This document shows, in pieces, positions 8,451-61,233 of a DNA stretch of 64,000 nucleotides. The notes beneath the pieces are model-generated. The model worked only from the letters and a program-made list of their open reading frames with translations, was not told the DNA's origin and made no database searches. This stretch comes from Nitrospirota bacterium. GTDB lineage: Bacteria; Nitrospirota; Nitrospiria; Nitrospirales; Nitrospiraceae. Both the position numbers and the translations under genes were made by a program. The first letter of the stretch is position 1; each line of letters opens with the position of its first letter. The stretch spans positions 248,001 through 312,000 of the forward strand of contig JACRLR010000040.1 of assembly GCA_016219645.1 (NCBI GenBank), in the 5' to 3' direction.

Positions 8451-10010
8451 ATGACCAGTTCCTTTCCCTGGCTTTCGCTTCTCCTCCTGCTCCCCCTTGC
8501 GGGGGCTGTCGCGATGTCGTTCGCGACAGAATCGACCGCTCGATGGATTGCGCTGGTCGCCACGCTGGCTGATCTGTGTGTCGCCCTCCCGCTCTGGTGG
8601 CTCTTCGATCCACAGGCCAGTCAGATGCAGTTCACCGAACATGTTGCCTGGATTACTGCTCCCCCCATTTACTACAGCCTGGGGCTCGATGGAATCAGCC
8701 TCCCCTTGGTGTTAATGACCGTTGGGATTATGCCTCTCTGCGTCTTGGCCTCTTGGAATGCGATCACCACCAGAGTCCCAGGCTTCATGGCCATGCTGCT
8801 CATCATGGAAACGGCTATGGTGGGAGTATTTGTCGCGCTGGACTTCGTTCTGTTCTACATCTTTTGGGAAGCCATGTTGATTCCGATGTACCTTCTCATC
8901 GGCGTCTGGGGCGGTGCCAACCGACTGTATGCAGCCATCAAGTTCTTTCTGTACACCCTCGCAGGGAGTATGCTCCTGCTCGTCGCCATCCTCGTCCTGT
9001 ACTATTACGGCGGGCACACGTTCGACATCCTCGCCTTAAGCCAAGGCACCTACCCTGCTTCACTGCAAATGTGGCTCTTTCTGGCGTTCTTCGCCGCCTT
9101 CGCGGTGAAGGTCCCCATGTTTCCATTTCACACCTGGCTTCCGGACGCCCACGTCGAGGCTCCAACAGCCGGCAGCGTCATCCTCGCCAGCATCCTCTTG
9201 AAAATGGGCACCTATGGGTTTCTGCGATTCAGTCTGCCGATGCTGCCGGATGCCAGTCGCGTCTTTACGCCCATGATGGTTGTCCTCTCCATCATCGCGA
9301 TTATCTACGGCGCATATATGGCGCTGGCGCAGGTCGATCTCAAGAAGCTGATCGCCTATTCGAGTGTGAGTCACATGGGGTTCGTGACCCTGGGGCTGTT
9401 CGTCCTGAACCAACAGGGTATCGAAGGAGCCGTTCTCCAAATGGTCAACCATGGGATTACAACAGGTGGGCTGTTCCTCTGTGTCGGCATTATCTATGAG
9501 CGCACCCACAGCCGGTTGATCGCCGACAATGTCGGATTGGCATCACCGATGCCGCAGTATGCCACTCTGTTGGTGATCTTCGCCCTGTCCTCACTCGGTC
9601 TTCCAGGCACCAATAGTTTTGTCGGAGAATTTCTCGTGCTCGTCGGCACCTTCTCCTGGAGCAAGATTGCAACAGCCGTGGCGTCGTTGGGCATTATTCT
9701 CGCCGCCACGTATCTCCTGTGGATGGTCCAACGGGTGGTTTTCGGAGTCCCGGCCGCGCACCATCTTCCGAAACTCAGGGACCTCAACCGACGGGAGTTC
9801 GCGACCCTGGTGCCGTTGGTCCTGTTGATATTTTGGATCGGGTTCTATCCGAATCCTCTCATAAGCCGGATGCATCAGAGCGTGACCAACACCATTGCCT
9901 CCATGTCCCGCGAGAAGGTGGCACCGACTGCCCACCCCTCTGCCAGAATCACAGCGCCGTTGCTGGTGGAGAGAGAAGAGCCGCTGGAGATCCAAGGCGG
10001 ATTGCGATGA
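8451..10010 (+). CDS. nuoM: NADH-quinone oxidoreductase subunit M
   Basis: 519-residue antiporter-like subunit. Signatures: the helix-5 glutamate in DFVLFYIFWEAMLIPMYLLIG, the lysine-containing channel motif FAVKVPMFPFHTWLPDAHVEAP followed by TAGSVILASILLKMGTYGF, and VDLKKLIAYSSVSHMGF. About 14 membrane segments. The stop overlaps the nuoN start (ATGA at 10007-10010), implying translational coupling. Its start lies flush against a repeat arm with no Shine-Dalgarno sequence. Confidence 0.95.
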   Translation: MTSSFPWLSLLLLLPLAGAVAMSFATESTARWIALVATLADLCVALPLWWLFDPQASQMQFTEHVAWITAPPIYYSLGLDGISLPLVLMTVGIMPLCVLASWNAITTRVPGFMAMLLIMETAMVGVFVALDFVLFYIFWEAMLIPMYLLIGVWGGANRLYAAIKFFLYTLAGSMLLLVAILVLYYYGGHTFDILALSQGTYPASLQMWLFLAFFAAFAVKVPMFPFHTWLPDAHVEAPTAGSVILASILLKMGTYGFLRFSLPMLPDASRVFTPMMVVLSIIAIIYGAYMALAQVDLKKLIAYSSVSHMGFVTLGLFVLNQQGIEGAVLQMVNHGITTGGLFLCVGIIYERTHSRLIADNVGLASPMPQYATLLVIFALSSLGLPGTNSFVGEFLVLVGTFSWSKIATAVASLGIILAATYLLWMVQRVVFGVPAAHHLPKLRDLNRREFATLVPLVLLIFWIGFYPNPLISRMHQSVTNTIASMSREKVAPTAHPSARITAPLLVEREEPLEIQGGLR

Positions 10011-18364: not shown

Positions 18365-18936
18365 AATCGATGGGTAATGGGCAATGGCAAATGGTTGATG
18401 GGTAATGGTTCATGGATGATGGTTAATGGGAAATGGCCGATGGGAGATGGTTTATAGCTCATGCTTCTCGGTAGTAGAATCTAAAAATGAAGAAACCGAA
18501 TATTGAGAATGTCGAGGACATGCCCATTTATCAATCATGTTTTCATCTCGCGACAGAAATCGAAAAGATTTCGCGTGCCTTCGATTCAGACTTCCGCTGG
18601 CTTCGGGGGCAGGTACTCCGTTCATCCGAATCCGTCTGCGCGAATATGACGGAGGGGTTCTATTCGCAGTACAGCACTGAGTACCTTCAAGCGCTCTACC
18701 GCTGTCGTCGAGAGGGACGAGAGACGAAGACCCATCTTTGTTATGCGATGAGCGTGAAGCAGCTGCCTGAAGCCGCTGGAAGGCTACTCACGACGGGATA
18801 CGATGAGGCGCTTAAGCAACTCGCGAACCTGATTGCCAGCATTGAGCGGAAAATTCGTCACCGCGGAAAGGGCAAGGCTGAGCCGGAATCACGGTCCTCT
18901 TAGTACATTCGCCATCACCCATTCACCATTAACCAT
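18365..18936. repeat. Inverted word-repeat arms flanking a small gene
   Basis: Left arm 18368-18460 is a run of GGTAATGGGCAATGGC, GGTTGATGGGTAATGG and similar words. Right arm 18907-18936 is CCATCACCCATTCACCATTA followed by ACCATG. The arms are complementary and enclose the four-helix-bundle gene at 18487-18903. Confidence 0.65.
18487..18903 (+). CDS. Four helix bundle protein (23S rRNA-intervening-sequence family)
   Basis: 138 residues, all predicted helical. The block LRSSESVCANMTEGFYSQYSTEYLQALYRCRREGRETKTHL is typical of the small S23/IVS-type four-helix-bundle proteins, found within rRNA intervening sequences and as stand-alone genes in repeats and mobile regions. Function unproven; structures of family members are pentameric helical bundles. 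It stands between dapF and uvrC inside a pair of inverted repeat arms, suggesting acquisition with the repeat. Confidence 0.8.
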   Translation: MKKPNIENVEDMPIYQSCFHLATEIEKISRAFDSDFRWLRGQVLRSSESVCANMTEGFYSQYSTEYLQALYRCRREGRETKTHLCYAMSVKQLPEAAGRLLTTGYDEALKQLANLIASIERKIRHRGKGKAEPESRSS

Positions 18937-20891: not shown

Positions 20892-22244
20892 CTAAAAGAT
20901 GAAATTGATGCTCACGGTCCCCAGATGGACATAGGCATGGTATGTCCCGTCCACGGTGGGGCTGATGATGTTACCGGTAATCGTCCGTGACTCATAGAAC
21001 CACTCCTGAAACGCCATATCGAGTCCAATTGCTTTCGGCCACAGTGCGGAGGTTCCTCCGCAAGGCACCAGGCCTAGAAATTTAGCCTGGCCTTTGCATA
21101 CAAAGCCCGTCCCGATGGACAGCGTGTTGGCAGTTAAAGAAATCGTCGCCGGGTTGAACGTGGTATCGGGAACGGGATTCTCGGTCCTGGTGTACCCGGA
21201 TCGGACTGCCACATCCCAATGGGGCAACCACGAGGGGTTGAGCCATTTGTATTCGGTGCCAATCGCTACGACCGGCACTGTCTTCCATTGTTGTGGTTGC
21301 GGGATGACCTGGCCCGATGAAAGGTGGATATCGAGGTTTCGATTCGAATTCCACCCGACATATTCCACGTCGAGTTCCAGTTTCCATTCCCGTTCACTGG
21401 TACGGACCGGCCAGATGGCAACGGCTCCTGTATAAATCTGGGGAAGCACGAGGCTGGTGGACGCATCGGCCACCTTCGTCCCGTTGACCAACAGCGATCC
21501 GTCCAATGGCACCACAGCCTGGGTGCGATAAACCAGGCCGATAGAGGCGATCGGTTGGCCATCGCTGTTTCTCAGGGGCGTATAGAGCAGACTGAAGTTT
21601 GCGCCGGCTCCTGTTCCTTTGCCGTTGGCCTCAATAGAAGCTCCAGCTAAGGGCCCGGTGCCCATTTGCTTCTGCTCGGCATGTCCCTGTCCAAGAAAAC
21701 TAGCGAACGTATAGATGTCTGCACCTATCCCGATGGCCAATTGATCATTCAACTTGTAAGCCACCGTTGGCTTGATATCGATGAGCGGAAGCGCTGCAGA
21801 GGTGACGACGGTATTGAAGGGGCCACCCACGGGATAACGGATGTTCAATCCGAATGGCGAGTTGAGGCCGAGTCCGACCGTCACGTCGGACAAGCTGTTC
21901 CATCCAAGAGATCCTAGGTTCGCGCTCACATAGGAATAGCTCGGTGGGGGATTGGCGATAGTTCCTCCAAAGTCTCCCCGACTGTCTATTCCGGTCGGGC
22001 TGGTATACGTGACGGACCCCCCAACGAGGGTTGTTCCGTTGAGTACTTGGATCCCCTTCACTTGGCTCAGTCCAGCTGGGTTGTAATGGATTGCGGAAGG
22101 GTCGTCGGCCTGGGCACTAAAAGCATTCCCCTGCCCGGCCGCCGTCGCTCCCTGTGGCTGGAACCGAATCCCTTGCGCATGTCCAAGCTGCGGGCACAGG
22201 ATAAAAAACAGCACCAGAGCCAAAACGAATTGTCGGCCTCTCAT
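20892..22244 (-). CDS. FadL/OmpP1-family outer-membrane transporter
   Basis: 450 residues. Signal peptide (RQFVLALVLFFILCPQLGHA) followed by the FadL-type N-terminal hatch sequence RFQPQGATAAGQGNAFSAQ and DDPSAIHYNPAGLSQVKG, in which the NPAG motif is diagnostic. The rest is amphipathic beta strands ending in INFIF, a C-terminal Phe typical of outer-membrane barrels. FadL proteins take up long-chain fatty acids and other hydrophobic compounds; in some rhizobia they help import long-chain AHLs. It is divergent from the luxR-type gene 198 bp away, so an AHL-related role is conceivable but unproven. Confidence 0.85.
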   Translation of the reverse strand: MRGRQFVLALVLFFILCPQLGHAQGIRFQPQGATAAGQGNAFSAQADDPSAIHYNPAGLSQVKGIQVLNGTTLVGGSVTYTSPTGIDSRGDFGGTIANPPPSYSYVSANLGSLGWNSLSDVTVGLGLNSPFGLNIRYPVGGPFNTVVTSAALPLIDIKPTVAYKLNDQLAIGIGADIYTFASFLGQGHAEQKQMGTGPLAGASIEANGKGTGAGANFSLLYTPLRNSDGQPIASIGLVYRTQAVVPLDGSLLVNGTKVADASTSLVLPQIYTGAVAIWPVRTSEREWKLELDVEYVGWNSNRNLDIHLSSGQVIPQPQQWKTVPVVAIGTEYKWLNPSWLPHWDVAVRSGYTRTENPVPDTTFNPATISLTANTLSIGTGFVCKGQAKFLGLVPCGGTSALWPKAIGLDMAFQEWFYESRTITGNIISPTVDGTYHAYVHLGTVSINFIF

Positions 22245-22442: not shown

Positions 22443-23243
22443 ATGGCACACCTCCAGAACAAGCGGCCCTTTCCCAAAGCGCTCTTTACCCAGCTCACCA
22501 AACCAGAGTGTGAGAATTTTATTGAAGTACTGCACTTTGCGGCGCAATCAGAAAGTGTCGAAGATGTCAAAGATGTGCTCACACGGTTCCAAACTCTGTT
22601 TCCCTTTACCCGGGTGATCGGTGGGCTCGCAAAACTCAGCCCCTCTGGCGCATTTGAGGGTTTTACCAATGTCCTCAATGTCAGCTATCCAGAAGAATGG
22701 ATTCGCCTCTACTGGCAGAGGGGGTATTTTGAGGTCGATCCGGTCCTCCAGACAGCCTTGCAGAAACCAGGGACTCAACATTGGGAATCTACCTACAAGG
22801 CGGCGAGCTCGGACAAACAGCGAGAATTCATGGAAGCGGCGAAGGAGTTCGGTTTGGGGGATGGGATCACAACCGGATCAACGGATACGGCATGTGGATA
22901 CGGAACCTTCTGCTCATTTGCTTCTGCTGAACGCGTGGATGCGAAACGGTACATGCCGCTCGTCGAGTACTTTGGATATCACGTCCATCTTGCTCTCTTG
23001 CGCACCGCCCCAAAGAGTTCGCAAGCCGTTGCGCCCTGTGTGAGAGAACTCACGCTCCGTGAAATGACGATCCTCAACTGGGTCAGGCAGGGCAAGACGA
23101 ATTGGGAGATCGCCAAAATCATGAGCGTGACTGAACGGACCATTCGGTTCCACGTGGAGAGCATCTTCTCAAAGTTGGATGTCACCTCGCGATCCCATGC
23201 GGTTGCGACCGCCATCGAACATGGTCTGCCGAACGTGGTGTAA
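22443..23243 (+). CDS. LuxR-family quorum-sensing transcription factor
   Basis: 266 residues. N-terminal autoinducer-binding domain keeps the family's six near-invariant residues: W86, Y90, D99, P100, W114 and G141 (in EEWIRLYW, EVDPVL, QHWES, GLGDGIT). C-terminal LuxR HTH at ~203-260 (ELTLREMTILNWVRQGKTNW, then EIAKIMSVTERTIRFHVESI) retains E207, L211 and G217. Start ATG with AAGGAAGG upstream. Convergent with a LuxI-type synthase 37 bp away, so very probably its cognate receptor. Likely binds the palindrome at 24071-24096. Confidence 0.93.
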   Translation: MAHLQNKRPFPKALFTQLTKPECENFIEVLHFAAQSESVEDVKDVLTRFQTLFPFTRVIGGLAKLSPSGAFEGFTNVLNVSYPEEWIRLYWQRGYFEVDPVLQTALQKPGTQHWESTYKAASSDKQREFMEAAKEFGLGDGITTGSTDTACGYGTFCSFASAERVDAKRYMPLVEYFGYHVHLALLRTAPKSSQAVAPCVRELTLREMTILNWVRQGKTNWEIAKIMSVTERTIRFHVESIFSKLDVTSRSHAVATAIEHGLPNVV

Positions 23244-23279
23244 CCACATGAGGCTTGTTTGATCTCAGCAGGGCTTCTG

Positions 23280-23993
23280 CTACGCCTCTGCTCCTACTAA
23301 CCCTAACCTCTGGCAGTTCGAGTACGTCGAATTCCGTCCCACTATCATCTCTCCCTGTAACGTCTCGATAGAGGAGATCCAGTTCAGCAACCGTGGTTTT
23401 TTGACCGCATTCTCTTCGTCAAATCGAACCATATCGTACAGCGCTGCTACGGAACTGGCTCCAGCGGGAGGCAGCACCACCGGCTCTCCTATCATTTCAC
23501 AAGGGAACCCGAGCGCCCGAAGCGTGCGAAAGAACCGGTGTTCGACCTCAAGATAGTAATACCGAATGTCGTTCGCCACCGCCCATTGATAGACGCCTTT
23601 CAACAGCACCAGCATCATCTTGGATGAGAGTCCTCTGTCGCGGATTTCAGGATCAATCGCAAGCCTGGTGATCTCGGCAGTATCTGAAGTTTTTCTGAGT
23701 TGGTAGCCGGCCGGGAGCAAGGCACCAAACTCTTTTTCGAGCATGAACTGCCCGGAAGAGGGAAGGAGTCGCGCTGCTCCAACAACCGTTCCGTCATCTC
23801 TGATCAACCCAACGGTTGTCCCCCACAAATCGTACAGATCGATTTCCTGCCGATCATCTGTTTCGGGAACCCACTTCAGTGACTCAGCAAACACTTTATG
23901 CCGGAGTCGATATGATTGAGTGAGCTGCTCCCCATGCAGGGTCTTTACAACAAAACCATTTTCACTGAATTCGACATCGTTCACTGCGTGCAT
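23280..23993 (-). CDS. LuxI-family acyl-homoserine-lactone synthase
   Basis: 237 residues from ATG 23993, chosen because AAAGGAG lies 8 nt upstream; an earlier in-frame start (24056) lacks a ribosome site. All residues normally invariant in LuxI enzymes are present in order: R31, F35, W41 (RHKVFAESLKW), D52 and D55 (EIDLYD), R75 (GAARLLPS), F89 (LEKEF), E107 and R110 (AEITRLAI). It should make N-acyl-homoserine lactone from S-adenosylmethionine and an acyl-carrier-protein thioester. Acyl chain length cannot be read. AHL production has been reported for Nitrospira moscoviensis. Convergent with luxR; a lux-box palindrome lies about 80 nt upstream. Confidence 0.92.
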   Translation of the reverse strand: MHAVNDVEFSENGFVVKTLHGEQLTQSYRLRHKVFAESLKWVPETDDRQEIDLYDLWGTTVGLIRDDGTVVGAARLLPSSGQFMLEKEFGALLPAGYQLRKTSDTAEITRLAIDPEIRDRGLSSKMMLVLLKGVYQWAVANDIRYYYLEVEHRFFRTLRALGFPCEMIGEPVVLPPAGASSVAALYDMVRFDEENAVKKPRLLNWISSIETLQGEMIVGRNSTYSNCQRLGLVGAEA

Positions 23994-24070
23994 CAGCCGT
24001 CTCCTTTCGTAAAGCCCATGAAAAGCCCTGTCACTTTCGCGGCCATTGTTTTTCATGTTCTACGTATTTC

Positions 24071-24096
24071 GTCACCTGGCGGAACCGCCAGGTGAC
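24071..24096. promoter_or_regulatory. lux-box-like palindrome upstream of the AHL synthase
   Basis: Perfect 26-bp palindrome: arms GTCACCTGGCGG and CCGCCAGGTGAC around AA. Its central 20 bp, ACCTGGCGGAACCGCCAGGT, has the ACCT-N12-AGGT layout of lux/las boxes. It lies between the divergent AHL synthase (start 23993, minus) and the histidine kinase (start 24209, plus), about 80 and 112 nt from them. A LuxR dimer bound here could activate luxI (positive feedback) and perhaps the kinase. No convincing -10 could be fixed. Confidence 0.82.
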
Positions 24097-24208
24097 CCAA
24101 TACGAGCAGGTGCGTACAAATAGGAGCCTGTCGAACCAAGGGGTCTCTACGAGGAGAGGCTCTGTTGCTATTTTCGTAGCATGAAATTTGGAGAGGGTCT
24201 TCTAACTG

Positions 24209-25027
24209 ATGAAAAACCGGCAGGGCTTTCAAATACTCGACGGATTTCGGCAATCCTCAGGAAAACCGACACAGCAACGTGCGGCTCTCACTCATGGAAT
24301 TCCCTGGGACACATCGGAGTCTCTTCCTTACCTGCTGCGGGATCAGGTCGGAGGCAGTCTCGCCTCTGCCCTCAAGGCATCCGAGCAACGTCTGACCGCG
24401 CTGTTGCACGATCGCAGCCGCATAGGAAGGGAACTGCACGACTCTGTGCTGCAAGCCCTCTATGCGATCGAGTTGAGCCTTGCACAATCCCCAGAGTTGC
24501 ACAGGGGTGTGCCGCCTGCTCTGCCACGTTCCAACGGTCAGGCGACCGATCAACTCAACAGGCTTATTCGAGATATCCGACGCATGATTCTCAGTGTGGA
24601 ATCTGACAACATCGATCCCTTCCGGCTGGTCTCCGAGTTACAAGCCCTTGCCCAGACTTGTGAGCAGGTGGGTAAATTACGGATTCGTGTGGCGGTTGCC
24701 CCTGCAGCAGCAGAAATCCTGACCGGCGAAGAAGCGCGCGAACTCGTTGCGATTGCCAGGGAGGCGTTGAGTAATTGTGTCCGCCACGCCCACGCGACAC
24801 AGATCGTGATTGCCCTTCGGCACATCGGCTCCCGAGTACGGCTGCGCATCTGCGACAACGGATCAGGCTTTGCCGTCGCTCAGGGACAGCCGAAAGGCAT
24901 CGGGATTGCCCAGATGGAAACTCGAGTTCGAAAGATCGGTGGTCGCCTGAACATCAAATCCACCCTGGGTCGAGGCACATGTATCACCGCCGATGTCTAT
25001 CTTGAGCCGGTGCTCGCGACGACATGA
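24209..25027 (+). CDS. NarL-partner-type sensor histidine kinase without evident sensor domain
   Basis: 272 residues. Dimerisation/phosphoacceptor helix RIGRELHDSVLQALYAIELSL with His77 is of the HisKA_3 type; the ATPase domain shows EALSNCVRHAHA (N box), DNGSGF (G1) and GIGIAQMETRVRKIGG (G2). There is no membrane segment, PAS or GAF in the ~60-residue N-terminus, so the input must come from a partner or that short region. GGAGAGG lies 12 nt before ATG. Its stop overlaps the next kinase (ATGA). The lux-box palindrome lies just upstream, so its transcription may be under LuxR control. Confidence 0.82.
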   Translation: MKNRQGFQILDGFRQSSGKPTQQRAALTHGIPWDTSESLPYLLRDQVGGSLASALKASEQRLTALLHDRSRIGRELHDSVLQALYAIELSLAQSPELHRGVPPALPRSNGQATDQLNRLIRDIRRMILSVESDNIDPFRLVSELQALAQTCEQVGKLRIRVAVAPAAAEILTGEEARELVAIAREALSNCVRHAHATQIVIALRHIGSRVRLRICDNGSGFAVAQGQPKGIGIAQMETRVRKIGGRLNIKSTLGRGTCITADVYLEPVLATT

Positions 25028-26253
25028 ACCGCCAACGCACTCAACGTGATACGGCATTATCTTCGAACGCTCCCAGCCGGGGGGTGCGCAGGGGCAACAA
25101 GACCGGTGCAAGCAGTTCCCTGAAGCCGGCTATCCCCCAGGGGGAGCCAATTGAGCAGTGCTATCGCACATTGCTAGGATTGTCCGGTAGTGCGATTCTG
25201 CTTCTCGCGCCTGACTCAATCATTCTAGGGTGGAACCGCTCGGCTGAAACAGTATCCGGCTGGATGGCCGATGAAGTACTGGGCCGGAACTTTGTGGAAC
25301 TCTGTCTCTCGAAGGAGGCGCGCGCCTCTTTTCGGATAAAACTCGCGCAGGTGACTCAAGGGGAGGAGATAAGGGGTCTTGAGGTCCCTCTCCGGACACG
25401 TACTGGATCACAGGCAATGCTTTCTTGGAGTCTCTCGCGGGTGCTGGGGACTCATGGAGACCTCATCGGCCTCATGGCAATTGGGACCGTCCTCCTTTCT
25501 GATACCCAGATTGAAGAAGAGCTCCTGCTGGCCCATGCTCAGATCCTGACCGAGGCTCGCAGGGCTGAGAAGGTTGCAGACGAGGAGCGGGGCAGAATTG
25601 CACGGGAGTTACACGACGAGTTTGGACAGGCCTTGACCGGTCTGAAATTCGACCTTGCCTGGTTCCGCAAACAACTGTCGCTGTTGCCTGCTCCAACCGG
25701 CAGCAGGGAGCTAGTGAGCAAAGTCCAGGCCATGTCGGGATCGATCGACGCACTGTTGGAATCTCTTCGTACGACAGTCGCAGACCTGCGCCCTGCGATG
25801 CTGAACGATCTTGGACTGGTCCCGGCATTGGAATCCCTCGCGGCGACATTCCAGCATCGCACGGGCGTGCGATGCCTGGTAGACGTGGACCCGGAAGTGT
25901 CATCCCTGGAGCTGCCCTCAGAAACGTCTGCCGCGTTGTTTCGAATCGCACAGGAATCATTGACCAATGTGATGCGTCATGCTGCCGCTTCGCTGGTACG
26001 AATACAGCTGTACCAGGGTGACGGCAGGGTGACGTTGGAAGTGGCTGACAACGGAAAGGGCGTTACCTGCGAGCGGATGAGCAAGCTCGATTCCTTCGGG
26101 CTTCGAGGGATGCAGGAACGAGTCTCCCTTCTGGGCGGCCACTTTTCTATCGGAGGTGCGCTCGGGGTCGGAACCACAGCCCGTGCCTCTGTGCCGACAC
26201 GCCGCTCAAAGGCTCTGGCCGACGGGCCGGTTGCGGAGGGCTCCATCCCATGA
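25024..26253 (+). CDS. PAS-domain sensor histidine kinase, HisKA_3 type
   Basis: 409 residues: basic N-terminal tail (1-40), PAS domain (~45-160, with LGWNRSAETVSGWMADEVLG), short coiled coil, phosphoacceptor helix RIARELHDEFGQALTGLKFDL with His197, and an ATPase domain (QESLTNVMRHAA, VADNGKGV, FGLRGMQERVSLLGG). Soluble, so it senses a cytoplasmic signal. Start overlaps the previous stop; its own stop overlaps the next regulator start (ATGA at 26250), so the three genes are one translationally coupled unit. Natural partner is the response regulator at 26250. Confidence 0.88.
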   Translation: MNRQRTQRDTALSSNAPSRGVRRGNKTGASSSLKPAIPQGEPIEQCYRTLLGLSGSAILLLAPDSIILGWNRSAETVSGWMADEVLGRNFVELCLSKEARASFRIKLAQVTQGEEIRGLEVPLRTRTGSQAMLSWSLSRVLGTHGDLIGLMAIGTVLLSDTQIEEELLLAHAQILTEARRAEKVADEERGRIARELHDEFGQALTGLKFDLAWFRKQLSLLPAPTGSRELVSKVQAMSGSIDALLESLRTTVADLRPAMLNDLGLVPALESLAATFQHRTGVRCLVDVDPEVSSLELPSETSAALFRIAQESLTNVMRHAAASLVRIQLYQGDGRVTLEVADNGKGVTCERMSKLDSFGLRGMQERVSLLGGHFSIGGALGVGTTARASVPTRRSKALADGPVAEGSIP

Positions 26254-26897
26254 TTGCGACTGACTTGGTAAAAATTCTGATCATCGACGATCACGAGGTC
26301 GTGCGCCGGGGTGTGAAACAGATCCTTGAAGAACACTTCCTGTACGTCGAGGTTGGGGAAGCCAATACCGGTGCGAAGGGGATTGCCGCAGCGCGGAAAG
26401 AGTCCTGGGATCTGATCATCGTGGACATCAGCCTTCCTGACCGGAACGGGTTAGAGCTCTTGTACGAGTTACATACGACAATGCCCCAACTCCCTCTGAT
26501 GGTCTTGAGCCTGCACTCTGAAGAGCAATATGCAACTCGTGCGCTCCAGACAGGGGCTATGGCCTATCTCACCAAAAACACCGCGCCAGAAGAGCTGGCC
26601 AGGGCGGTCAAGCAGGTGTTGAGCGGCAGGAGGTATGTCTCCGCTTCCATTGGAGAGCGCTTGGCCGGTAACCTGAGTCAGAGTCCCTCCGGTCCTGAAC
26701 ATCACACATTGTCCAAGCGAGAGCTCGAAGTTCTTGTATTGTTAGCCCAGGGCCGGTCCATTAAACACATCGCGCAGTTCCTGACTCTCAGCATCAAAAC
26801 CGTGAGCACCTATCGAGCCCGTCTCCTGGACAAGTTGCAACTCACGACCACCGCCGAATTGATCCGCTACGCCCTTGACCATCACCTGGTCGATTAG
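26250..26897 (+). CDS. NarL/FixJ-type response regulator
   Basis: 215 residues. Receiver with acidic pocket D13-D14, phosphoacceptor D59 (LIIVDISLPDRNG), and the conserved Lys in AYLTKNTAPEEL; C-terminal LuxR-type HTH (LSKRELEVLVLLAQGRSIKH, then IAQFLTLSIKTVSTYRARLL). Expected DNA-binding activator or repressor phosphorylated by the kinase upstream. The C-terminal half is closely similar to the regulators at 30272 and 31053, indicating recent paralogues. Confidence 0.9.
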   Translation: MIATDLVKILIIDDHEVVRRGVKQILEEHFLYVEVGEANTGAKGIAAARKESWDLIIVDISLPDRNGLELLYELHTTMPQLPLMVLSLHSEEQYATRALQTGAMAYLTKNTAPEELARAVKQVLSGRRYVSASIGERLAGNLSQSPSGPEHHTLSKRELEVLVLLAQGRSIKHIAQFLTLSIKTVSTYRARLLDKLQLTTTAELIRYALDHHLVD

Positions 26898-27015
26898 CAG
26901 GATGCGGGAAAGTCCGCCAGCGTCCGGTCTCGACATCCGTGAAGCGTATCTCGTGAAGCGTCGTTCGTTTCAGGATTCGGACGTTTCACGCTTCACGAAC
27001 GACAGGGTCGTTCGA
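26898..27015. repeat. Intergenic element: GCAGGATGC end plus GTGAAGCG word hairpin
   Basis: Starts AGCAGGATGCGGGAAAGTCC followed by GCCAGCG, the conserved element end seen also at 20866-20892 and 57277. The interior has CCGTGAAGCGTATCTCGTGA words and their complement TTTCACGCTTCACGAACGAC. Confidence 0.65.
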
Positions 27016-27054
27016 ATTGACAGCTCACTTCCTCGCCGACTAGGATAACGGCCT

Positions 27055-27618
27055 GTGAGTCATTCCGATCTTATAGAACCCGCCGCAGTAAAGCGTTCTC
27101 ATTCTCCCGGCAGCCGCGTTGAGCACGTATTTGAAACAATCGTGTTCGCCAGCCGGTGGATTCAGGCTCCACTCTATGGCGGCCTCATCGTGGCTGAGCT
27201 GCTCTACGCGTACAAATTTCTTGTTGAACTATGGGAGATGATCCGCCATATCGATCAGCAAAAAGAGACCGTCTTCATGCTGGGTATTCTGGGGCTGATC
27301 GACGTCACGATGGTGGCGAACTTGCTCACGATGGTGATCATCGGAGGCTACGCCACATTTGTGAGCAAATTAGATCTGGAGGATCATGCAGATCGACCAG
27401 ACTGGTTGACCCACATCGACCCCGGCACCATCAAAATCAAACTCGCAGCGTCGTTGATCGGTATCTCCAGCATTCATCTTCTTAAATCGTTCGTCGACAT
27501 CGAGAATGAAAATCTGGAGCACATCAAGTGGAAGATCTTTATCCATCTGACCTTTCTCGGCTCCGCTATCCTCCTCGCATGGACCGATAAGATTATGCAG
27601 AAAGACAAGAAGCACTGA
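27055..27618 (+). CDS. YqhA/UPF0114 family membrane protein
   Basis: 187 residues, GTG start with AGGA 9 nt upstream. Three or four hydrophobic segments with the signature blocks VFETIVFASRWIQAPLYGGL, GLIDVTMVANLLTMVIIGGY and DPGTIKIKLAASLIGISSIHLL of the UPF0114 (TIGR00645) family. No biochemical function is established for the family. It sits between a two-component operon and a lipoprotein gene on the same strand. Confidence 0.85.
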   Translation: MSHSDLIEPAAVKRSHSPGSRVEHVFETIVFASRWIQAPLYGGLIVAELLYAYKFLVELWEMIRHIDQQKETVFMLGILGLIDVTMVANLLTMVIIGGYATFVSKLDLEDHADRPDWLTHIDPGTIKIKLAASLIGISSIHLLKSFVDIENENLEHIKWKIFIHLTFLGSAILLAWTDKIMQKDKKH

Positions 27619-27645
27619 CCCAACGCGCCACCGCCCAGGTGTTCA

Positions 27646-27683
27646 GGCTGAAGGTGGTTTCTCCCCCTAACGGCCTTCAGCCT
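27646..27683. repeat. 10-bp inverted repeat upstream of lipoprotein
   Basis: Arms AGGCTGAAGG (27645-27654) and CCTTCAGCCT (27674-27683), loop of 19 nt, with no T-run after it. It lies between the YqhA-like gene and the lipoprotein start and supports placing that start downstream at 27702. Confidence 0.45.
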
Positions 27684-27701
27684 ATCTACCTGACACGAGC
27701 A

Positions 27702-28820
27702 ATGATGAAGCGATTAGAGCATTCCCTGTATGCCCTGCTAGTCATCCTGCTCGCGCAAGCAGGCTGCAGTTCTTCGGTCGTGCAGCTTCACGACCAACCG
27801 GATCTCAATCACAGAGATTTCCGTCAGAAGCTAGCCGACAATAAAGAGCTTGCGACGAGGTTCCTGGCATGTACCGGGCAAGTTCATGATGAACCATTGA
27901 GCGAGCGCCATAATGCCGGTACCTCTTCGGAGCCATTGTCCCCGCAAACCCAGAAGGGGCACGTGGTGAGCGTCCGCCCCCTGGCAGCCGTCATTGATAC
28001 GGTGCGCCGGCGGCATCCCGACAAAGGCGCCTCCCTCTCTATCCTTGCCGACGTCCTTGACGACGTGGCCAACGCCGCGACGGCGCGCATCGATCTGGAC
28101 AAGCTCAAGCAGGTCGCTGAAGCCGCCAGGCAGTGGCACGGGCATATCGGGCTGGATGAGGATCAATTTGAACGGGATTCTTCTCGCTTTGCTCGCTTGT
28201 TGCTGGCATACAACAAAGCCTATTTGGGCGATCTCAGCTACAGGGCAAGATCTGGTTCCACGGGAACAGGCCCTCGGGGGGTCGTCAAGGTTACCTCGCA
28301 AGGGTTCGTCGATCGAAGCGGCAATGCCTTTCTGTTCCCTGGTATCTCAGCTGAAATAGAAATGAGCTCTGGCAGTCCAGTTCGCGCCTCGGCTTCCATG
28401 GTCGACTCTCAACGTGTGAGCGCCGATCTCACGCGCATTTTCCTGGAGGCATTCTTCGACACGGCCTTTCGAGTACCGGCCGTACATGGCGCGACAGCAT
28501 TGCGAGTGGTATCGAACTCCCGGGAACCCTCCTATCCTGAATTCGATGCCGATCATCCCGCGATCCCCCTGGAGGCCTTGGCGAGAGTCACTCGTGATGC
28601 GATGCGCGCCGAAGCCGCAATGGTAGCACTGGTCGGCAAAGCGGTTCGTGGTGGAAGTCTATTCGGAACGAACAACGAAACCGTTGCCGCCACCCTGGAA
28701 ACCGCAGCGGGAGTGATTGCGAAAAAACTCGTCGAGCATGAAGGCTTCTGCTATTCCCAGGTCATGACAGGGCAGCCAGCCAGCAACCCACGTGATCAGA
28801 ATGAGCCACCCGTGAAGTAA
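27702..28820 (+). CDS. Putative lipoprotein of unknown function
   Basis: 372 residues from ATG 27702 (the frame opens at 27639, but that part covers a hairpin and would bury the signal). MMKRLEHSLYALLVILLAQAGC is a short positively charged start, hydrophobic core, and a cysteine in a weak lipobox (Q-A-G-C), followed by SSSVVQLHDQ. The mature part is soluble and alpha-rich with no motif I recognise; residues ~255-330 include DTAFRVPAVHGATALRVVSN. Likely periplasmic, membrane-anchored. Last plus-strand gene of the signalling block. Confidence 0.6.
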   Translation: MMKRLEHSLYALLVILLAQAGCSSSVVQLHDQPDLNHRDFRQKLADNKELATRFLACTGQVHDEPLSERHNAGTSSEPLSPQTQKGHVVSVRPLAAVIDTVRRRHPDKGASLSILADVLDDVANAATARIDLDKLKQVAEAARQWHGHIGLDEDQFERDSSRFARLLLAYNKAYLGDLSYRARSGSTGTGPRGVVKVTSQGFVDRSGNAFLFPGISAEIEMSSGSPVRASASMVDSQRVSADLTRIFLEAFFDTAFRVPAVHGATALRVVSNSREPSYPEFDADHPAIPLEALARVTRDAMRAEAAMVALVGKAVRGGSLFGTNNETVAATLETAAGVIAKKLVEHEGFCYSQVMTGQPASNPRDQNEPPVK

Positions 28821-28956
28821 CCGTCTCCTGCCTATTGCCAAGTCTGCGTGAGTATGCCTCGGCTGTCCCGCCAATTCGGTGTCCAGACAAGCCCGGAGAG
28901 CCTGTTCGACTGGGGGAGCAATCGATCGAACCAGCGTGCGAATATCCATCGAGTCT

Positions 28957-29325
28957 TCATGCAGATGCCAGGAGCTGTTCCACGTGCTCTAAGAAAACTG
29001 CGGCAGTGAACGGTTTGGCCAAGGTTTTGGCGGCGCCGAATAGCATGGCAAGGGCGTCTGTACCGTACCCTGCATTGAATTTTCCCGAGATGGCTAACAC
29101 CTTGACTGTCTGGCAGCCTTTGTGGAGCTGCAGCAATGTCTCCAATCCATCCTTGTCAGGCAGATAAATATCGAGCACGATCAGGTCGGGCTTCTCTCGG
29201 TCAATGCAGGCAAGAGCGTTGCTTCCGTTCCCTGCCTCGAAGACCAAATACCCGTTGTCCTCGAGGAGTCTTCGAAGCCAGCTACGAAGTTGCTCGTCAT
29301 CCTCAACGACGAGGATAGTCGCCAT
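28957..29325 (-). CDS. Single-domain response regulator (receiver only)
   Basis: 122 residues from ATG 29325 with AAAGGAAA upstream. CheY-like: ILVVEDDEQLRSWLRRLLED (acidic pair), phosphoacceptor in DLIVLDIYLPDKDG, Thr/Ser switch region LAISGKF, and Lys in KTLAKPF. No output domain, so it probably works as a phosphate relay or sink, or by protein contact. Start overlaps the end of the upstream regulator (29303) by 23 bp, so the two are cotranscribed. Confidence 0.88.
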   Translation of the reverse strand: MATILVVEDDEQLRSWLRRLLEDNGYLVFEAGNGSNALACIDREKPDLIVLDIYLPDKDGLETLLQLHKGCQTVKVLAISGKFNAGYGTDALAMLFGAAKTLAKPFTAAVFLEHVEQLLASA

Positions 29326-30112
29326 GGTAGCTGTTTCCTTTCGTCGAGAGGGCTGTGGTGCTTGAGTTCGATGTCCGCTTCTGATCCAGAACAAACAGAA
29401 CCGCTGCCTGTGCCCGGTTCGCAATACCGAGTTTTTTAAACATATGCGAAAGATAGTTCTTTACGGTCTTGTCGGAGAGAGAGAGCTGCGCGGAGATTTC
29501 CTTGTTGGTCATGCCTTCCGACAGAAGGGGAAGAATTCGCCGCTCCTGTGGCGACACACGCTGTAATCCTGACCGCTGATGCAATGGAGCCGCGTCTTCT
29601 TTCCCTTGGAGGGAAGCGAACAGGTGATGATTTGCCTTCATATCGATGTAGAAGGTCCCCTCGGCAACCGCGCGAATTGCCCGGAGCAACTCCTGACGGT
29701 TGACTCCCGCCAGCACATATCCATAGGCTCCGGTCTCGACGGCATCACGGATTGCCGTACCGGTATTTTCCAGGGATAGGATGATGATTCGGGCCCCGGG
29801 AATCATCGCACACAAGGTCCGACAGAGCTCGAATCCGGATCCAGACTCAAGACGATCTTGAAGGATCACGATGTCGGGTTGTACCAGCTGCGCTTCGGAT
29901 AACGTGCCGGCTTGGGTGCCGGTCTCAGCCACAATCAGCAGATCCGGTTCGTCTTCGCACATGATACGCAGGCCGACCCGGACCACCTCCTGGTCGTCGG
30001 CTATGAGCAGGCGAATCGGCCGTCGGAAGTCAGAAGCGGTTGAGCAAGTGGTAGAAGCCTTCGACGCGGGCCGGCGACGACGCTCTCCGCATAGAGCAGG
30101 TTCGTTTCCCAT
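29303..30112 (-). CDS. NarL-type regulator with degenerate receiver
   Basis: 269 residues from ATG 30112, chosen for GGAGG 4 nt upstream; ATG 30154 would add 14. The receiver keeps the first acidic pair (LLIADDQEVVRVGL) but the phosphoacceptor strand reads DIVILQDRLESGSG: the expected Asp is Gln (codon CAA), with Asp one place later. The conserved Lys is lost (YVLAGVNRQEL instead of YLxKD). The HTH is intact (VSPQERRILPLLSEGMTNKE, then ISAQLSLSDKTVKNYLSHMF). It may act without phosphorylation, or bind a ligand, as some atypical NarL regulators do. Confidence 0.83.
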   Translation of the reverse strand: MGNEPALCGERRRRPASKASTTCSTASDFRRPIRLLIADDQEVVRVGLRIMCEDEPDLLIVAETGTQAGTLSEAQLVQPDIVILQDRLESGSGFELCRTLCAMIPGARIIILSLENTGTAIRDAVETGAYGYVLAGVNRQELLRAIRAVAEGTFYIDMKANHHLFASLQGKEDAAPLHQRSGLQRVSPQERRILPLLSEGMTNKEISAQLSLSDKTVKNYLSHMFKKLGIANRAQAAVLFVLDQKRTSNSSTTALSTKGNSYHGDYPRR

Positions 30113-30271
30113 ACGACCTCCAAGAAGAACGGTGCAAGCCGGCCGTCGCACCATAACGATTCGTTCCTGAACGTCAGGCTATCCCGAAAATGGGAGGAAG
30201 ACTATCAGTCCGATCCGTATTCTGGTATCGGTTTTCGTCCTACAGGGACCGTTGTTGAAGCGACGGTCAAG

Positions 30272-30901
30272 TTAGGGGGCAAGGTGATGATCCACGGCAT
30301 AACGAATAAGCGCCGCCGTGGTTTTCAGCTGAAGTTTTTCAAGGAGACGAGCGCGGTAGGTGCTGACGGTCTTGATGCTGAGTTTCATCCGCGTGGCGGC
30401 TTGAGAGACCGTCAAGCCCTGTCCGAAGTGCGTCAGCACTTCGAGTTCGCGGGCTGACAAGAGGGAGGCTGAGGGAGCCGTGCGGCTCATGGCACCGCGG
30501 GTTTCCAGCCGGTCCGTCAAAGAGGCGGCGACATGGCGCCCTCCGGCGAGGATCGTACGCAGCGAACGGCACAGTTCGTCGCGTTCGGTGTCTTTCGTGA
30601 GATAGCCGGACGCGCCAAAATGAAAACTCAGCTCGGCATACCGCGGCTCGTTGTGCATGCTCAGCATCAGGCAGGGAAGGTTTGGTCGCAGTTGCTTAAT
30701 CCGTTTCAGCAGATCGAGACCGCTCTGATCCGGCAGCATGATATCGAGTACGGCCAAAGAAACCGGCTCCCGGCGCACGATGTCCAGCGCTTGTGCGCCG
30801 GTCGAAGCCTCCTGAGTTTTCCATAAGGGGAAGGAGTCATTAATGACCTGCATGAGAGCTTGGCGATAGAGCGGATGGTCGTCGATGAGGAGGACTAGCA
30901 T
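30272..30901 (-). CDS. NarL/FixJ-type response regulator
   Basis: 209 residues with a complete receiver: LLIDDHPLYRQAL, phosphoacceptor in LAVLDIMLPDQSG, Lys in GYLTKDTERDEL. LuxR-type HTH: LLSARELEVLTHFGQGLTVS, then LSIKTVSTYRARLLEKLQLK. Paralogue of the regulators at 26250 and 31053. Monocistronic-looking with 117 bp to the degenerate regulator and 151 bp to the upstream one. Confidence 0.9.
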   Translation of the reverse strand: MLVLLIDDHPLYRQALMQVINDSFPLWKTQEASTGAQALDIVRREPVSLAVLDIMLPDQSGLDLLKRIKQLRPNLPCLMLSMHNEPRYAELSFHFGASGYLTKDTERDELCRSLRTILAGGRHVAASLTDRLETRGAMSRTAPSASLLSARELEVLTHFGQGLTVSQAATRMKLSIKTVSTYRARLLEKLQLKTTAALIRYAVDHHLAP

Positions 30902-31052
30902 AGCGTCCCTGGTTCATGTGCATGACCCGTGTGATTTTCAGAAACAGCCTACTGGAGATCAAAGGGAAGAGGTAGCAGAGTAAGGCTGATAGGGGTATCC
31001 GCAAAGATCCTACAGCCGGACAGGTGACGAATTGGCACGTAATCTTGTCGAG

Positions 31053-31694
31053 CTAGGTTGTGAGGCGATGTTCGATGGCGTAGCGCACTAGTTGGGCCGT
31101 GGATTGTAAGCCAAGTTTCTCCAGCAGCCTGGCGCGATAGGTGCTGATCGTCTTGACGCTTAGCGCCATTTCGTCGGCAATCTGCGATGGCCGCTTGCCC
31201 TGGCCGAGGAGCCGCAAGACTTCCATTTCCCGATCGGAGAGGATGGCATGAGGTGTAGCAGGCTGTCCGCTGTCGAGAAAGTCCATAAGCTGGTCGGCCA
31301 GCGAGCCGGTGATATATCGCCGGCCGGCGACCACTTCTTTGACTGCCGACAGCAGTTCGGATGGAGGCCCGTCCTTGGTGAGGTATGCTGAAGCCCCGGC
31401 CTTGAAAGCGCGCAGCGCAAACTCCCGCTCAGGATACAAGCTGAGCATCAACACCGGCAGCTTTGGGCGCAAGAGCTTGACTTCTTTCAACACCTCTAGA
31501 CCGTGTTTATCCGGAAGTGCCACATCGAGAATGAGTAGATCCCAGGGTTCCCGTCGGATGGCAGCCAGCGCCGTGGCCGCGCAGTCCGCTTCGACGATGG
31601 CCGTGCAGGCCGCTTCTTGGCTAAGCAGGTTCCGAATTCCTTTGCGGAAAATCGGGTGATCGTCGACGATCAAACATTTACACTTGTGTCCCAT
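31053..31694 (-). CDS. NarL/FixJ-type response regulator paired with large hybrid-sensor kinase
   Basis: 213 residues. Receiver: CLIVDDHPIFRKGIRNLL, phosphoacceptor in LLILDVALPDKHG, Lys in AYLTKDGPPSEL. HTH: LSDREMEVLRLLGQGKRPSQ, then MALSVKTISTYRARLLEKLG. Start lies inside the 3' end of the upstream kinase gene (17-bp overlap), so this is the kinase's cognate regulator. The N-terminal MGHKCKC has three unusual early residues with two Cys; whether they matter is unknown. Confidence 0.9.
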   Translation of the reverse strand: MGHKCKCLIVDDHPIFRKGIRNLLSQEAACTAIVEADCAATALAAIRREPWDLLILDVALPDKHGLEVLKEVKLLRPKLPVLMLSLYPEREFALRAFKAGASAYLTKDGPPSELLSAVKEVVAGRRYITGSLADQLMDFLDSGQPATPHAILSDREMEVLRLLGQGKRPSQIADEMALSVKTISTYRARLLEKLGLQSTAQLVRYAIEHRLTT

Positions 31695-34602
31695 GTCTCA
31701 GCCGCTTCTTTCTTTCGACCGGCATAGGGAGCCGAGGGGATCGCAAGGAACCGTTTTCCTGCAAGACAGGCGCGACGGGGATACGGACGGTTACAGTGGT
31801 CCCCTGGCCCCTTTCCGATCGGATCTCAAAGGTTCCTCCAAGCAGCTCGGCCCGCTCCTGGATCCCTCGGAGCCCGAACCGGTGCTTGAGCGGCCGCGAA
31901 CCGAACTTCATGCCCTGTCCGTCGTCTTGCGCCTCCAGAGAGGCCCATCCGTCAGAACAACCGAGCGTGATCGTGGCGGTCGTCGCTTTGGCGTGGCGAA
32001 CGATGTTCGTCAACAATTCCTGTGCGATGCGATAGAGAGTGCCCTGGATTTCAGGTCCCAACGATGTCCCAAAATCCTCGGTATCAGCCACGATCCGACA
32101 CCGGAGCCCAGATCGTTCCTGCGCCTCGTTCGCGAGAGCCTGTATGGCGGTGAAGAGTCCCAACTCCTCCAGTACCGCCGGCCGCAAGGCCGCGACCATT
32201 CCCCTCAGCGATGAGAACAGGCGATCCACGGTGCTCGTGGCCGTCTGCGCTTTCTTGCGGACCCTGCTCGCCATCGGGCTGCGAATCTTCAGAAGCGAAC
32301 CGGCGATGTCGTCGAGATCGAACTTGAGTACGCTCAGCAGCTGCCCAAACTCATCGTGCAGCTCCCGTGAAAGCCGTCTGCGCTCCTGTTCCTGCGCAAT
32401 CTGTACCTCCCGGCTTAAGGCCTGAAGGCGGCGATAGGCTTCTTGTAACGCCTCGTAGGTTCGATTCCGGTCCGTAATGTCCAGAGCATAGGCCACGCGG
32501 GAGATGGGATTACCCCGCGAATCCTTGATAACTGTGACTTCCATCAGCACTGGGAAGGTCGTCCCGTCTTTCCGCCGGTGGACGGATTCGAAGACGAGAT
32601 GTCCGCAGCGGTCTATTTCCGGGAAGCGCGCCTTCATCGCATCGTGCACGTCGGGGGCATAGATGGAGAGAATAGGTTGGCCGATCAATTCGTCGACACG
32701 GTACCCCCGCTCCCGGGCGAAGGCATCATTCACAGCCAGAAACGTGCCATCTTCAATACCCCCGTAAGCCAATCCGAACTGGGCCCGTTCGAAGACCTCC
32801 TTCCAGCGAGCAGCGCCTTCTTCGGCCTGCTTGCGCTCGGTGATGTCTTCCGTGAAAATCACAATACCGCCGATGTCGCCTCGGGCTGTTCGCCAGGGGA
32901 TGATTGCCCACCGGAGCCAGTTCGTACGACCATCGTCACGGACAAAGATATCCTCCTCGCACCTCTCGGTCGCGCCAGCCAAACACCGTCGGTGAATGTC
33001 CTTCCAGCGTTGAGGGACATCCGGGAAGACCTCGTAATGGCTCCGTCCGGTGAGTGGCCCATCGCCCAGTTTATAATCGGTCATCCAGCGCCGGCTGACG
33101 GTCAGATACCGCATGTCGCGATCGAACATGGCCAACGCAACCGGGCTGTGTTCAATGAAGAGCCGCAAGTGTGTTTCTCGTTCAAGCAGCGCCTCAACCG
33201 CCTGTTCGCGTTCGATCGCGATCGCAGCGGTATGGGTGGCCATTTCAACCACTCCTAATTGGCGCGTAGCGGGCCGTCCGGGCGTACGGAAGTAGAGGGC
33301 GAAGGTGCCGAGTAAGCGCCGTTGCGTGTTGAAAATGGGTGTGGACCAGCAGGCGCGCAGGCCGTATGACAATGCAAGGTCACGGTAATTCTCCCACAGC
33401 GGATCGATGGCGATATCTTCGACAATGACCGCCTCACGCCGGAATAACGCTGTGCCACACGAGCCGGCGCATGGGCCAATGGGTTGACCGTCAATGGCCC
33501 GTGTGAAATTTTCCGGTAAGCTCGGCGCCGCGCCGCACCGCATATGGACGCCATCGGCATCGAGCAACAGGATAGAGGCGAGCATGCCGTCCGACTGTGT
33601 TTCGATGGAACGGACCAGCGTATCGAGAGTGTCGTGGAGCGGAGCGCCAACGGCTATTAATTCGAGCGTGCGGCTCTGGATTCTCAGCGACTCCTCACTT
33701 CGTTTTCGCTCGGTGATGTCGTAGCCGGTGGCTAAACGGGCCGGCTGGTCACCGTAGTCGATGGTCGTCGCGGTGAAGTCCAGCCAGCGCTCTTGGCCGT
33801 CCTTCTGGATGATTTTAAATTCATAACGGGCTGGCGTCGTTGCGCCTCCCTGTGTGGCCAGCGCACGGGCCTTCAAGAGGGGCAGAAAATCGGGGTGCAC
33901 CATCTTCCACATATCCATCGCGAGCAATTCCTCGACCGAATAGCCGGAGATGAGGGCCGCGGCTGCGTTCGCATAGAGAATCTGGTCGCTCCGGTAAATG
34001 AAAATCGCGGAAGGGGAGGACTCGCTCAACTTTCTAAACTTTTCCTCGCTTTGCCGGAGTGTCTCATGCGCGTGGCTGAGATTGCTGTGGGTGTGCGACA
34101 ATTCCTTTAGGCTCCGGTTCAGTATCAGATGCTCGATGACCTGCCGGCTGAGCACCTGCAGCGCTTCTTGTTGCTCCTTGGTCAGGGTACGCGGCACATG
34201 GTCGATGACGCTGAGCGTGCCGATCCTATATCCCTCCGAGGTGACCAGTGGGGCGCCACAGTAAAACCGGATATGAGGATCACCGGTCACCAGCGGATTG
34301 GTTGCAAACCGCTCGTCTGCCATCGCATCCGGCACGATCAGGACATCCGGGCTGAGGATCGTATGGGCGCAAAAAGCGATGTATCGGCTGGTTTCCGTCG
34401 CAGTCAGGCCGATTTTCGATTTAAACCATTGGCGATTTGAATCAACGAGGCTGATTACCGCAATCGGGGTATGACAAATGTAGGAGGCCAGCTGAACGAG
34501 GTCGTCCAGTGCCTTTTCGGGGGGAGTGTCGAGGACCTCATACTGATAGAGTGCGGAGAGTCGTTCGGCTTCACGAAGCGAAGGAGGAAGAGGAGCAGTC
34601 AT
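31678..34602 (-). CDS. Multi-sensor GAF/PAS histidine kinase, HisKA_3 type
   Basis: 974 residues from ATG 34602 (GGGGTGG 8 nt upstream; a GTG four codons earlier is possible). Order: GAF (~15-170), PAS (~195-305, KLSESSPSAIFIYRSDQILY), GAF (~315-470, containing GPCAGSCGTALFRREAVIVED), PAS (~480-600), PAS (~605-730), phosphoacceptor helix RLSRELHDEFGQLLSVLKFDL, ATPase domain (QELLTNIVRHAK, FGLRGIQERAELLGG). No membrane segments, so a cytoplasmic, possibly redox- or ligand-sensing kinase. Its catalytic part resembles the kinase at 25024. Paired with the regulator at 31053. Confidence 0.9.
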   Translation of the reverse strand: MTAPLPPSLREAERLSALYQYEVLDTPPEKALDDLVQLASYICHTPIAVISLVDSNRQWFKSKIGLTATETSRYIAFCAHTILSPDVLIVPDAMADERFATNPLVTGDPHIRFYCGAPLVTSEGYRIGTLSVIDHVPRTLTKEQQEALQVLSRQVIEHLILNRSLKELSHTHSNLSHAHETLRQSEEKFRKLSESSPSAIFIYRSDQILYANAAAALISGYSVEELLAMDMWKMVHPDFLPLLKARALATQGGATTPARYEFKIIQKDGQERWLDFTATTIDYGDQPARLATGYDITERKRSEESLRIQSRTLELIAVGAPLHDTLDTLVRSIETQSDGMLASILLLDADGVHMRCGAAPSLPENFTRAIDGQPIGPCAGSCGTALFRREAVIVEDIAIDPLWENYRDLALSYGLRACWSTPIFNTQRRLLGTFALYFRTPGRPATRQLGVVEMATHTAAIAIEREQAVEALLERETHLRLFIEHSPVALAMFDRDMRYLTVSRRWMTDYKLGDGPLTGRSHYEVFPDVPQRWKDIHRRCLAGATERCEEDIFVRDDGRTNWLRWAIIPWRTARGDIGGIVIFTEDITERKQAEEGAARWKEVFERAQFGLAYGGIEDGTFLAVNDAFARERGYRVDELIGQPILSIYAPDVHDAMKARFPEIDRCGHLVFESVHRRKDGTTFPVLMEVTVIKDSRGNPISRVAYALDITDRNRTYEALQEAYRRLQALSREVQIAQEQERRRLSRELHDEFGQLLSVLKFDLDDIAGSLLKIRSPMASRVRKKAQTATSTVDRLFSSLRGMVAALRPAVLEELGLFTAIQALANEAQERSGLRCRIVADTEDFGTSLGPEIQGTLYRIAQELLTNIVRHAKATTATITLGCSDGWASLEAQDDGQGMKFGSRPLKHRFGLRGIQERAELLGGTFEIRSERGQGTTVTVRIPVAPVLQENGSLRSPRLPMPVERKKRLRHGTQV

Positions 34603-34686
34603 TTTGGCTACCACCCCAGTAGAATGTCGGTACTATACCCGATGGAGGCTGCCTAATCTAGGAGGGATACATAGAGATCCCCCAAC

Positions 34687-61185: not shown

Positions 61186-61233
61186 GCTATCGTGGGCTCA
61201 CCCACGATAGCCCACGATGAATCGTGGGCTATC
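61186..61233. promoter_or_regulatory. Two overlapping, mutually exclusive hairpins
   Basis: Hairpin A: GCTATCGTGGG (61186-61196), CTCA loop, CCCACGATAGC (61201-61211). Hairpin B: GATAGCCCACGAT (61206-61218), GA, ATCGTGGGCTATC (61221-61233). They share 61206-61211, so only one can form: the layout of an attenuator or a terminator/antiterminator pair. No U-run follows. Confidence 0.5.

Follow-up and report, generated by a model that had tools for sequence, protein, structure and literature searches.

A lux box between luxI and a divergent histidine kinase operon in a comammox Nitrospira

A single lux box separates the acyl-homoserine lactone (AHL) synthase gene luxI from a divergent set of genes for two histidine kinases and a response regulator in a comammox Nitrospira genome, and comparison of the locus with that of about 90 relatives points to this neighbouring kinase operon as the likely main conserved target of the box. 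The predicted circuit, in which AHL-bound LuxR would switch on luxI and, above all, the operon of kinases and response regulator at 24209-26897, is given a probability of about three in four. Gene identities, conserved residues, synteny, and the uniqueness, conservation and position of the box were computed in the present analysis, which covered a window of 64,000 nucleotides (the whole stretch of DNA analysed) and a family survey of 175 genomes. The luxI gene was found in 92 of the 175, and the luxI loci of the luxI-bearing genomes were then compared; the surveyed genomes are related to each other, hence the counts of loci given below are not independent.

The host genome (3.65 Mb, 71 contigs) carries an AmoA-family gene (PF02461, 310 bits) and is therefore assigned to comammox Nitrospira, and it contains one luxI and one AHL-type luxR. 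The sequence-only reading had pointed to AHL production in Nitrospira moscoviensis, which is right in that the general system is known, although that species is a relative and not the amoA-bearing host itself. Among titled records, the nearest LuxI is 97% identical and comes from a Nitrospirae metagenome-assembled genome.

The LuxI/LuxR pair and its lux box

The receptor shows both expected domains, with scores of 79 bits for Autoind_bind and 67 bits for GerE, and the synthase matches the Pfam Autoind_synth family at 61.4 bits against a curated cut-off of 24. The longest luxI open reading frame begins at 24056, but the extension beyond 23993 is without support; the start was set at the ATG at 23993 (MHAVND...) because it is preceded by the Shine-Dalgarno sequence AGGAGA and because the alignment of the relatives begins at the same residue.

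Table 1. Features of the locus, in window coordinates
Feature	Position	Strand	Remarks
FadL/TodX-type outer-membrane transporter	20892..22244	-	divergent from luxR
luxR-type AHL receptor/activator	22443..23243	+	266 aa; Autoind_bind and GerE HTH
luxI-type AHL synthase	23280..23993	-	237 aa; Autoind_synth; start at 23993
lux box	24071..24096	.	12-bp arms, AA spacer; central 20 bp at 24074-24093
-10-like TACAAA, predicted promoter of the kinase operon	24115..24120	+	22-27 nt past the box, at class II spacing
HK1, soluble histidine kinase (HisKA_3, HATPase_c)	24209..25027	+	272 aa; divergent partner of luxI
HK2, PAS histidine kinase	25024..26253	+	409 aa; 4-bp overlap with HK1
RR1, NarL/GacA-type response regulator	26250..26897	+	215 aa; 4-bp overlap with HK2

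Residue positions were taken from alignment to LasI, the closest solved structure to LuxI by sequence, and, in the case of LuxR, from alignment to LasR. All nine signature residues of LuxI enzymes, which we take to be R, F, W, D, D, R, F, E and R, are present and nearly invariant across 90 LuxI relatives, and the six pocket and three HTH residues of LuxR are likewise kept and nearly invariant across 89 relatives, in agreement with what had been read from the sequence. The convergent arrangement of the two genes, also claimed earlier, recurs in 90 of 90 relatives' loci. Together, the intact genes, domains and residues, and an identical 20-bp box at which binding and activation by a Nitrospira LuxR have been demonstrated (PMC8553950), uphold the earlier description of the locus as a complete LuxI/LuxR system with its lux box. 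LuxI is predicted to make an AHL from SAM and an acyl donor, and LuxR is predicted to bind the box in an AHL-dependent manner. The FadL gene adjoins luxR in 79 of 86 loci. A rhizobial FadL imports long-chain AHLs (PMC9938287), and the transporter encoded here is possibly an entry route for such a signal.

The box is an inverted repeat of the form GTCACCTGGCGG-AA-CCGCCAGGTGAC. It had been called a perfect 26-bp palindrome, which describes the arms well, as they match at 12 of 12 positions, but does not hold in the strict sense because the central AA is not self-complementary. The repeat lies 80 bp from the luxI start, and so upstream of the synthase as stated in the sequence-only reading; it is, however, also common to the divergent kinase operon at 24209, whose start is 115 bp away and for which it is the better positioned. 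Its lux form, a 20-bp ACCT-N12-AGGT inverted repeat upstream of luxI, is conserved in 92 loci. Across 38 distinct boxes 14 of 26 columns are invariant, and the outer GTC/GAC is conserved too, so that the lux element extends over about 26 bp. Within the 64-kb window, two perfect repeats with 12-bp arms and a spacer of 0-4 were found, one being the lux box; the other (2-bp spacer) lies at 61207-61232 and reads ATAGCCCACGATGAATCGTGGGCTAT.

The box is no chance occurrence: there is a single exact match to it in the 3.65-Mb genome, and it follows luxI across the family (counts below). The search for further ACCT-N12-AGGT-type boxes, proposed earlier as a check, yielded no second box over background in the host: a tight pattern with up to 3 mismatches gave three sites, two of them extra and inside open reading frames, compared with five in the reversed control, and a scan with a profile built from the 38 distinct boxes scored the locus box at 31 bits and the next best site at 10 bits, with nothing beyond noise except the luxI locus. 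A looser pattern (ACCTG-N10-CAGGT, up to 2 mismatches) returned 1380 sites genome-wide against 1292 in the reversed control, which makes that search uninformative. Across the family, the box (up to 1 mismatch) is present in 90 of 175 genomes and luxI in 92, while the reversed pattern was met in 2 of 175. A hand count of the 175 genomes gave 87 with both, 5 with luxI only, 3 with the box only and 80 with neither, an association with a Fisher value of 1.7e-39 that rests on this hand count and ignores the kinship of the genomes.

Orientation of the box and its candidate targets

With the TACAAA hexamer as the -10 on the kinase side, the centre of the box would fall at about -43, as is typical of class II activation, and transcription of the operon is predicted to start at about 24127. 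A TA occurs 20-24 nt past the box on this side in 97% of 92 loci, in contrast to 3% at the equivalent spacing on the luxI side, and the background for such windows elsewhere in the region is 16-17%. This footprint fits published induction data from activated-sludge Nitrospira, in which NspR1 with C8-HSL activated the divergent side of the box 196-fold and the luxI side 14-fold (PMC8553950). No recognisable sigma-70 -10 was found on the luxI side. There, 47 of 92 loci have a conserved TGGAACCAT-like element at a distance of 19-27 nt, where a -10 would be; the window copy, at 24047-24055, is a divergent version. A sigma-54 reading of this TGGAACCAT element was rejected, as its spacing, judged by eye, fits some loci and not most.

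The genes HK1, HK2 and RR1 (24209-26897) look like an operon, since they overlap by 4 bp at both junctions. HK1 is divergent across the box in 85 of the 88 loci with enough sequence and is absent at this place in the other three (L118, L133 and L164). HisKA_3 together with HATPase_c was detected in 73 of 74 divergent proteins tested, the phospho-acceptor His 77 of HK1 is nearly invariant among relatives, and the ATP-binding motifs are kept. Before residue 69, HK1 contains no Pfam domain and no hydrophobic segment, and its structure model is of low confidence (mean pLDDT 56, residues 1-55 below pLDDT 50). As a typical N-terminal sensor domain was not recognised, HK1 is classed as a kinase core only. 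HK2 is found in the window's genus; outside it, the second position is mostly taken by a response regulator gene. Two copies of HK1 are present at the locus in three relatives (L208 in G139, L115 in G159 and L112 in G160). Further along the window, NarL-type response regulators and PAS histidine kinases are densely clustered (26250-34614).

These observations suggest the following circuit. In this comammox Nitrospira, LuxI would make an acyl-homoserine lactone, and AHL-bound LuxR on the single box at 24071-24096 would recruit RNA polymerase to either side. Elsewhere, on an identical 20-bp box, activation of both sides was shown to depend on AHL, and binding was demonstrated in the presence of RNA polymerase; both properties are carried over here by analogy. 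Leftward from the box, luxI expression would rise in a positive feedback, and rightward, HK1-HK2-RR1 would be switched on from a class II promoter whose predicted -10 lies at 24115-24120. Because a sensor domain was not recognised in HK1, the input of this kinase would be its own abundance, set by the quorum signal. Phosphate would next pass from HK1 and HK2 to RR1, and RR1 would in turn control downstream genes. We infer the role of the kinase operon as the main output, the activity of HK1, the phosphotransfer to RR1 and everything downstream.

In the most serious alternative, the box serves only luxI autoinduction, and the kinase operon lies beside it through synteny and is transcribed independently of LuxR from a promoter of its own. 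Conserved synteny extends far past the box to dapF, uvrC, FadL and UPF0114, so that adjacency of the box and the kinase gene alone proves little. (Between dapF and uvrC, a small open reading frame at 18487-18903 has, by eye, a four-helix-bundle resemblance of the S23 type.) However, the class II -10-like TA is fixed on the kinase side and not on the luxI side, 16 loci have two boxes within the intergenic region, the box is kept beside HK1 where luxI has been lost, and the divergent direction is the one activated 196-fold on the same box (PMC8553950); on this evidence, a purely autoinductive role is unlikely.

In another view, which goes back to a GGDEF/EAL annotation (PMC8553950), c-di-GMP signalling would be the true output and the kinase operon a minor one. 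In some relatives, extra boxes do stand before genes with a PilZ domain, a c-di-GMP receptor (G137, G138, G051 and G046; L213, L214, L168 and L219), but the host genome has no such extra box, and neither GGDEF nor EAL matched any of the 74 divergent proteins tested, which makes this output rather less probable still. Further extra boxes were seen in relatives near secreted TIG/RHS-repeat genes (G138 and G048; L215:7799 and L220:7932), and in two relatives, G008 and G085 (L170:8054 and L169:8010), mtnB is preceded at a distance of about 50-70 bp by a lux-box-like repeat, with weaker repeats at mtnB loci of other relatives, luxI-less genomes included (L224-L248). The mtnB gene belongs to methionine/MTA salvage, and MTA is a by-product of AHL synthesis. 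Upstream of the host's own mtnB, the box score is -13.6 bits, about 1 SD over shuffles, and the site was not counted; no extra box was found outside the luxI locus in the host genome. The extra boxes of the relatives are leads and no evidence for targets in the host.

Decay or silencing of the quorum-sensing system would agree with the disappearance of luxI and luxR from the corresponding place in some relatives, such as G141, yet here the catalytic, pocket and HTH residues are all intact, the box is exact and a ribosome-binding site is present, and transcripts of the AHL synthase and LuxR genes of N. moscoviensis are above the median (PMC6606698), so that a decayed or silent system is very improbable. 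Finally, the inverted repeat could be taken for a terminator or a structural repeat instead of an operator on account of its GC-rich, perfect 12-bp arms, but a T-run is absent on both sides and the sequence itself is conserved, not pairing alone (14 of 26 columns in 38 distinct boxes), which led to the rejection of a terminator, and with its position between two divergent genes and the binding of the identical 20-mer by a Nitrospira LuxR (PMC8553950), this explanation keeps hardly any weight.

Loci of relatives without luxI

In G141 (L209), luxI and luxR are gone from the locus, uvrC adjoins the box, and the perfect 26-bp box (at 9280) and HK1-HK2-RR1 are kept; the locus is a natural deletion. 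An AHL-type LuxR was not found in this genome, which is 83% complete. Five further genomes (G071, G075, G091, G103 and G120) combine a box matching at 15-16 of 18 positions and a retained HK1 with a LuxR-type protein that has no AHL-binding core. These short proteins comprise 180-184 residues in four of the five, the start being uncertain in G071, and their HTH is about 63% identical over 60 residues. HK1 is also present in G146 and G156, there without a recognisable box.

The luxI-less locus of G075 (L200:2710-8332), the one studied most closely, contains a LuxR-like gene, an unassigned gene with a product of ~440 aa, genes for a FabF-like ketosynthase and a P450, and the short LuxR. A similar gene set is seen in L199 and L201-L203, and also in L206 and L208, there without the short LuxR. 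The FabF-like/P450 set at luxI-less loci possibly serves the biosynthesis of another signal.

These loci raise the tentative idea, which we consider somewhat less probable than its opposite, that the conserved heart of the locus in Nitrospiraceae may be a LuxR-to-kinase relay acting via the single box, and not AHL autoinduction, and that this relay can outlive the signal. If true, a sensorless kinase would read its own quorum-controlled abundance, and the relay could persist after signal loss. Relatives that have the box and the kinase and no luxI are natural comparisons in this respect. More generally, the question of which functions AHLs control in Nitrospira, comammox included, is narrowed by a single box and one conserved divergent operon, and the claim to test is that the quorum state is handed to a two-component system.

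Comparison with known systems

The closest parallel is the NspI/NspR1 system described by Tan et al. 2021 in activated-sludge Nitrospira (PMC8553950), compared here by box and layout. Its box, ACCTGGCGGTTCCGCCAGGT, lies between nspI and a divergent gene, and the central 20 bp of the window's box are the exact reverse complement of ACCTGGCGGTTCCGCCAGGT; the distances to luxI and to the divergent gene are 81 and 125 bp there, and 80 and 115 bp here. NspR1 bound the box only with RNA polymerase present (PMC8553950). The two systems differ in the divergent gene, which was annotated there as GGDEF/EAL and not as a kinase, whereas it encodes a sensorless histidine kinase here. As none of the 74 divergent proteins tested matched GGDEF or EAL, either the organism of Tan et al. 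differs or its annotation does.

Similarly, NjpI/NjpR of Nitrospira japonica NJ1 is a single luxI with a luxR in a lineage II Nitrospira, for which AHLs of C10-C14 were detected, and the same source refers to Mellbye 2017 for the AHL synthase of N. moscoviensis; the available portion of that report gives no box or target for either species (PMC5767232), and the window's species is a comammox relative. Among solved structures, the window's LuxR is nearest in sequence to CviR of Chromobacterium, with 132 bits across 258 residues; CviR is distant, and its targets differ. HK1 matches the catalytic core of DesK/NarX/VraS-type HisKA_3 kinases and differs from them in that neither a sensor domain nor a membrane segment was recognised in it, and in its placement under a lux box. 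For N. japonica and N. moscoviensis, both luxI/luxR and AHLs have already been published, as has a wide occurrence in lineage II, and this lux box has been reported in Nitrospira; the locus itself is therefore a further instance of a known system. What is new here is its likely target, the divergent kinase operon.
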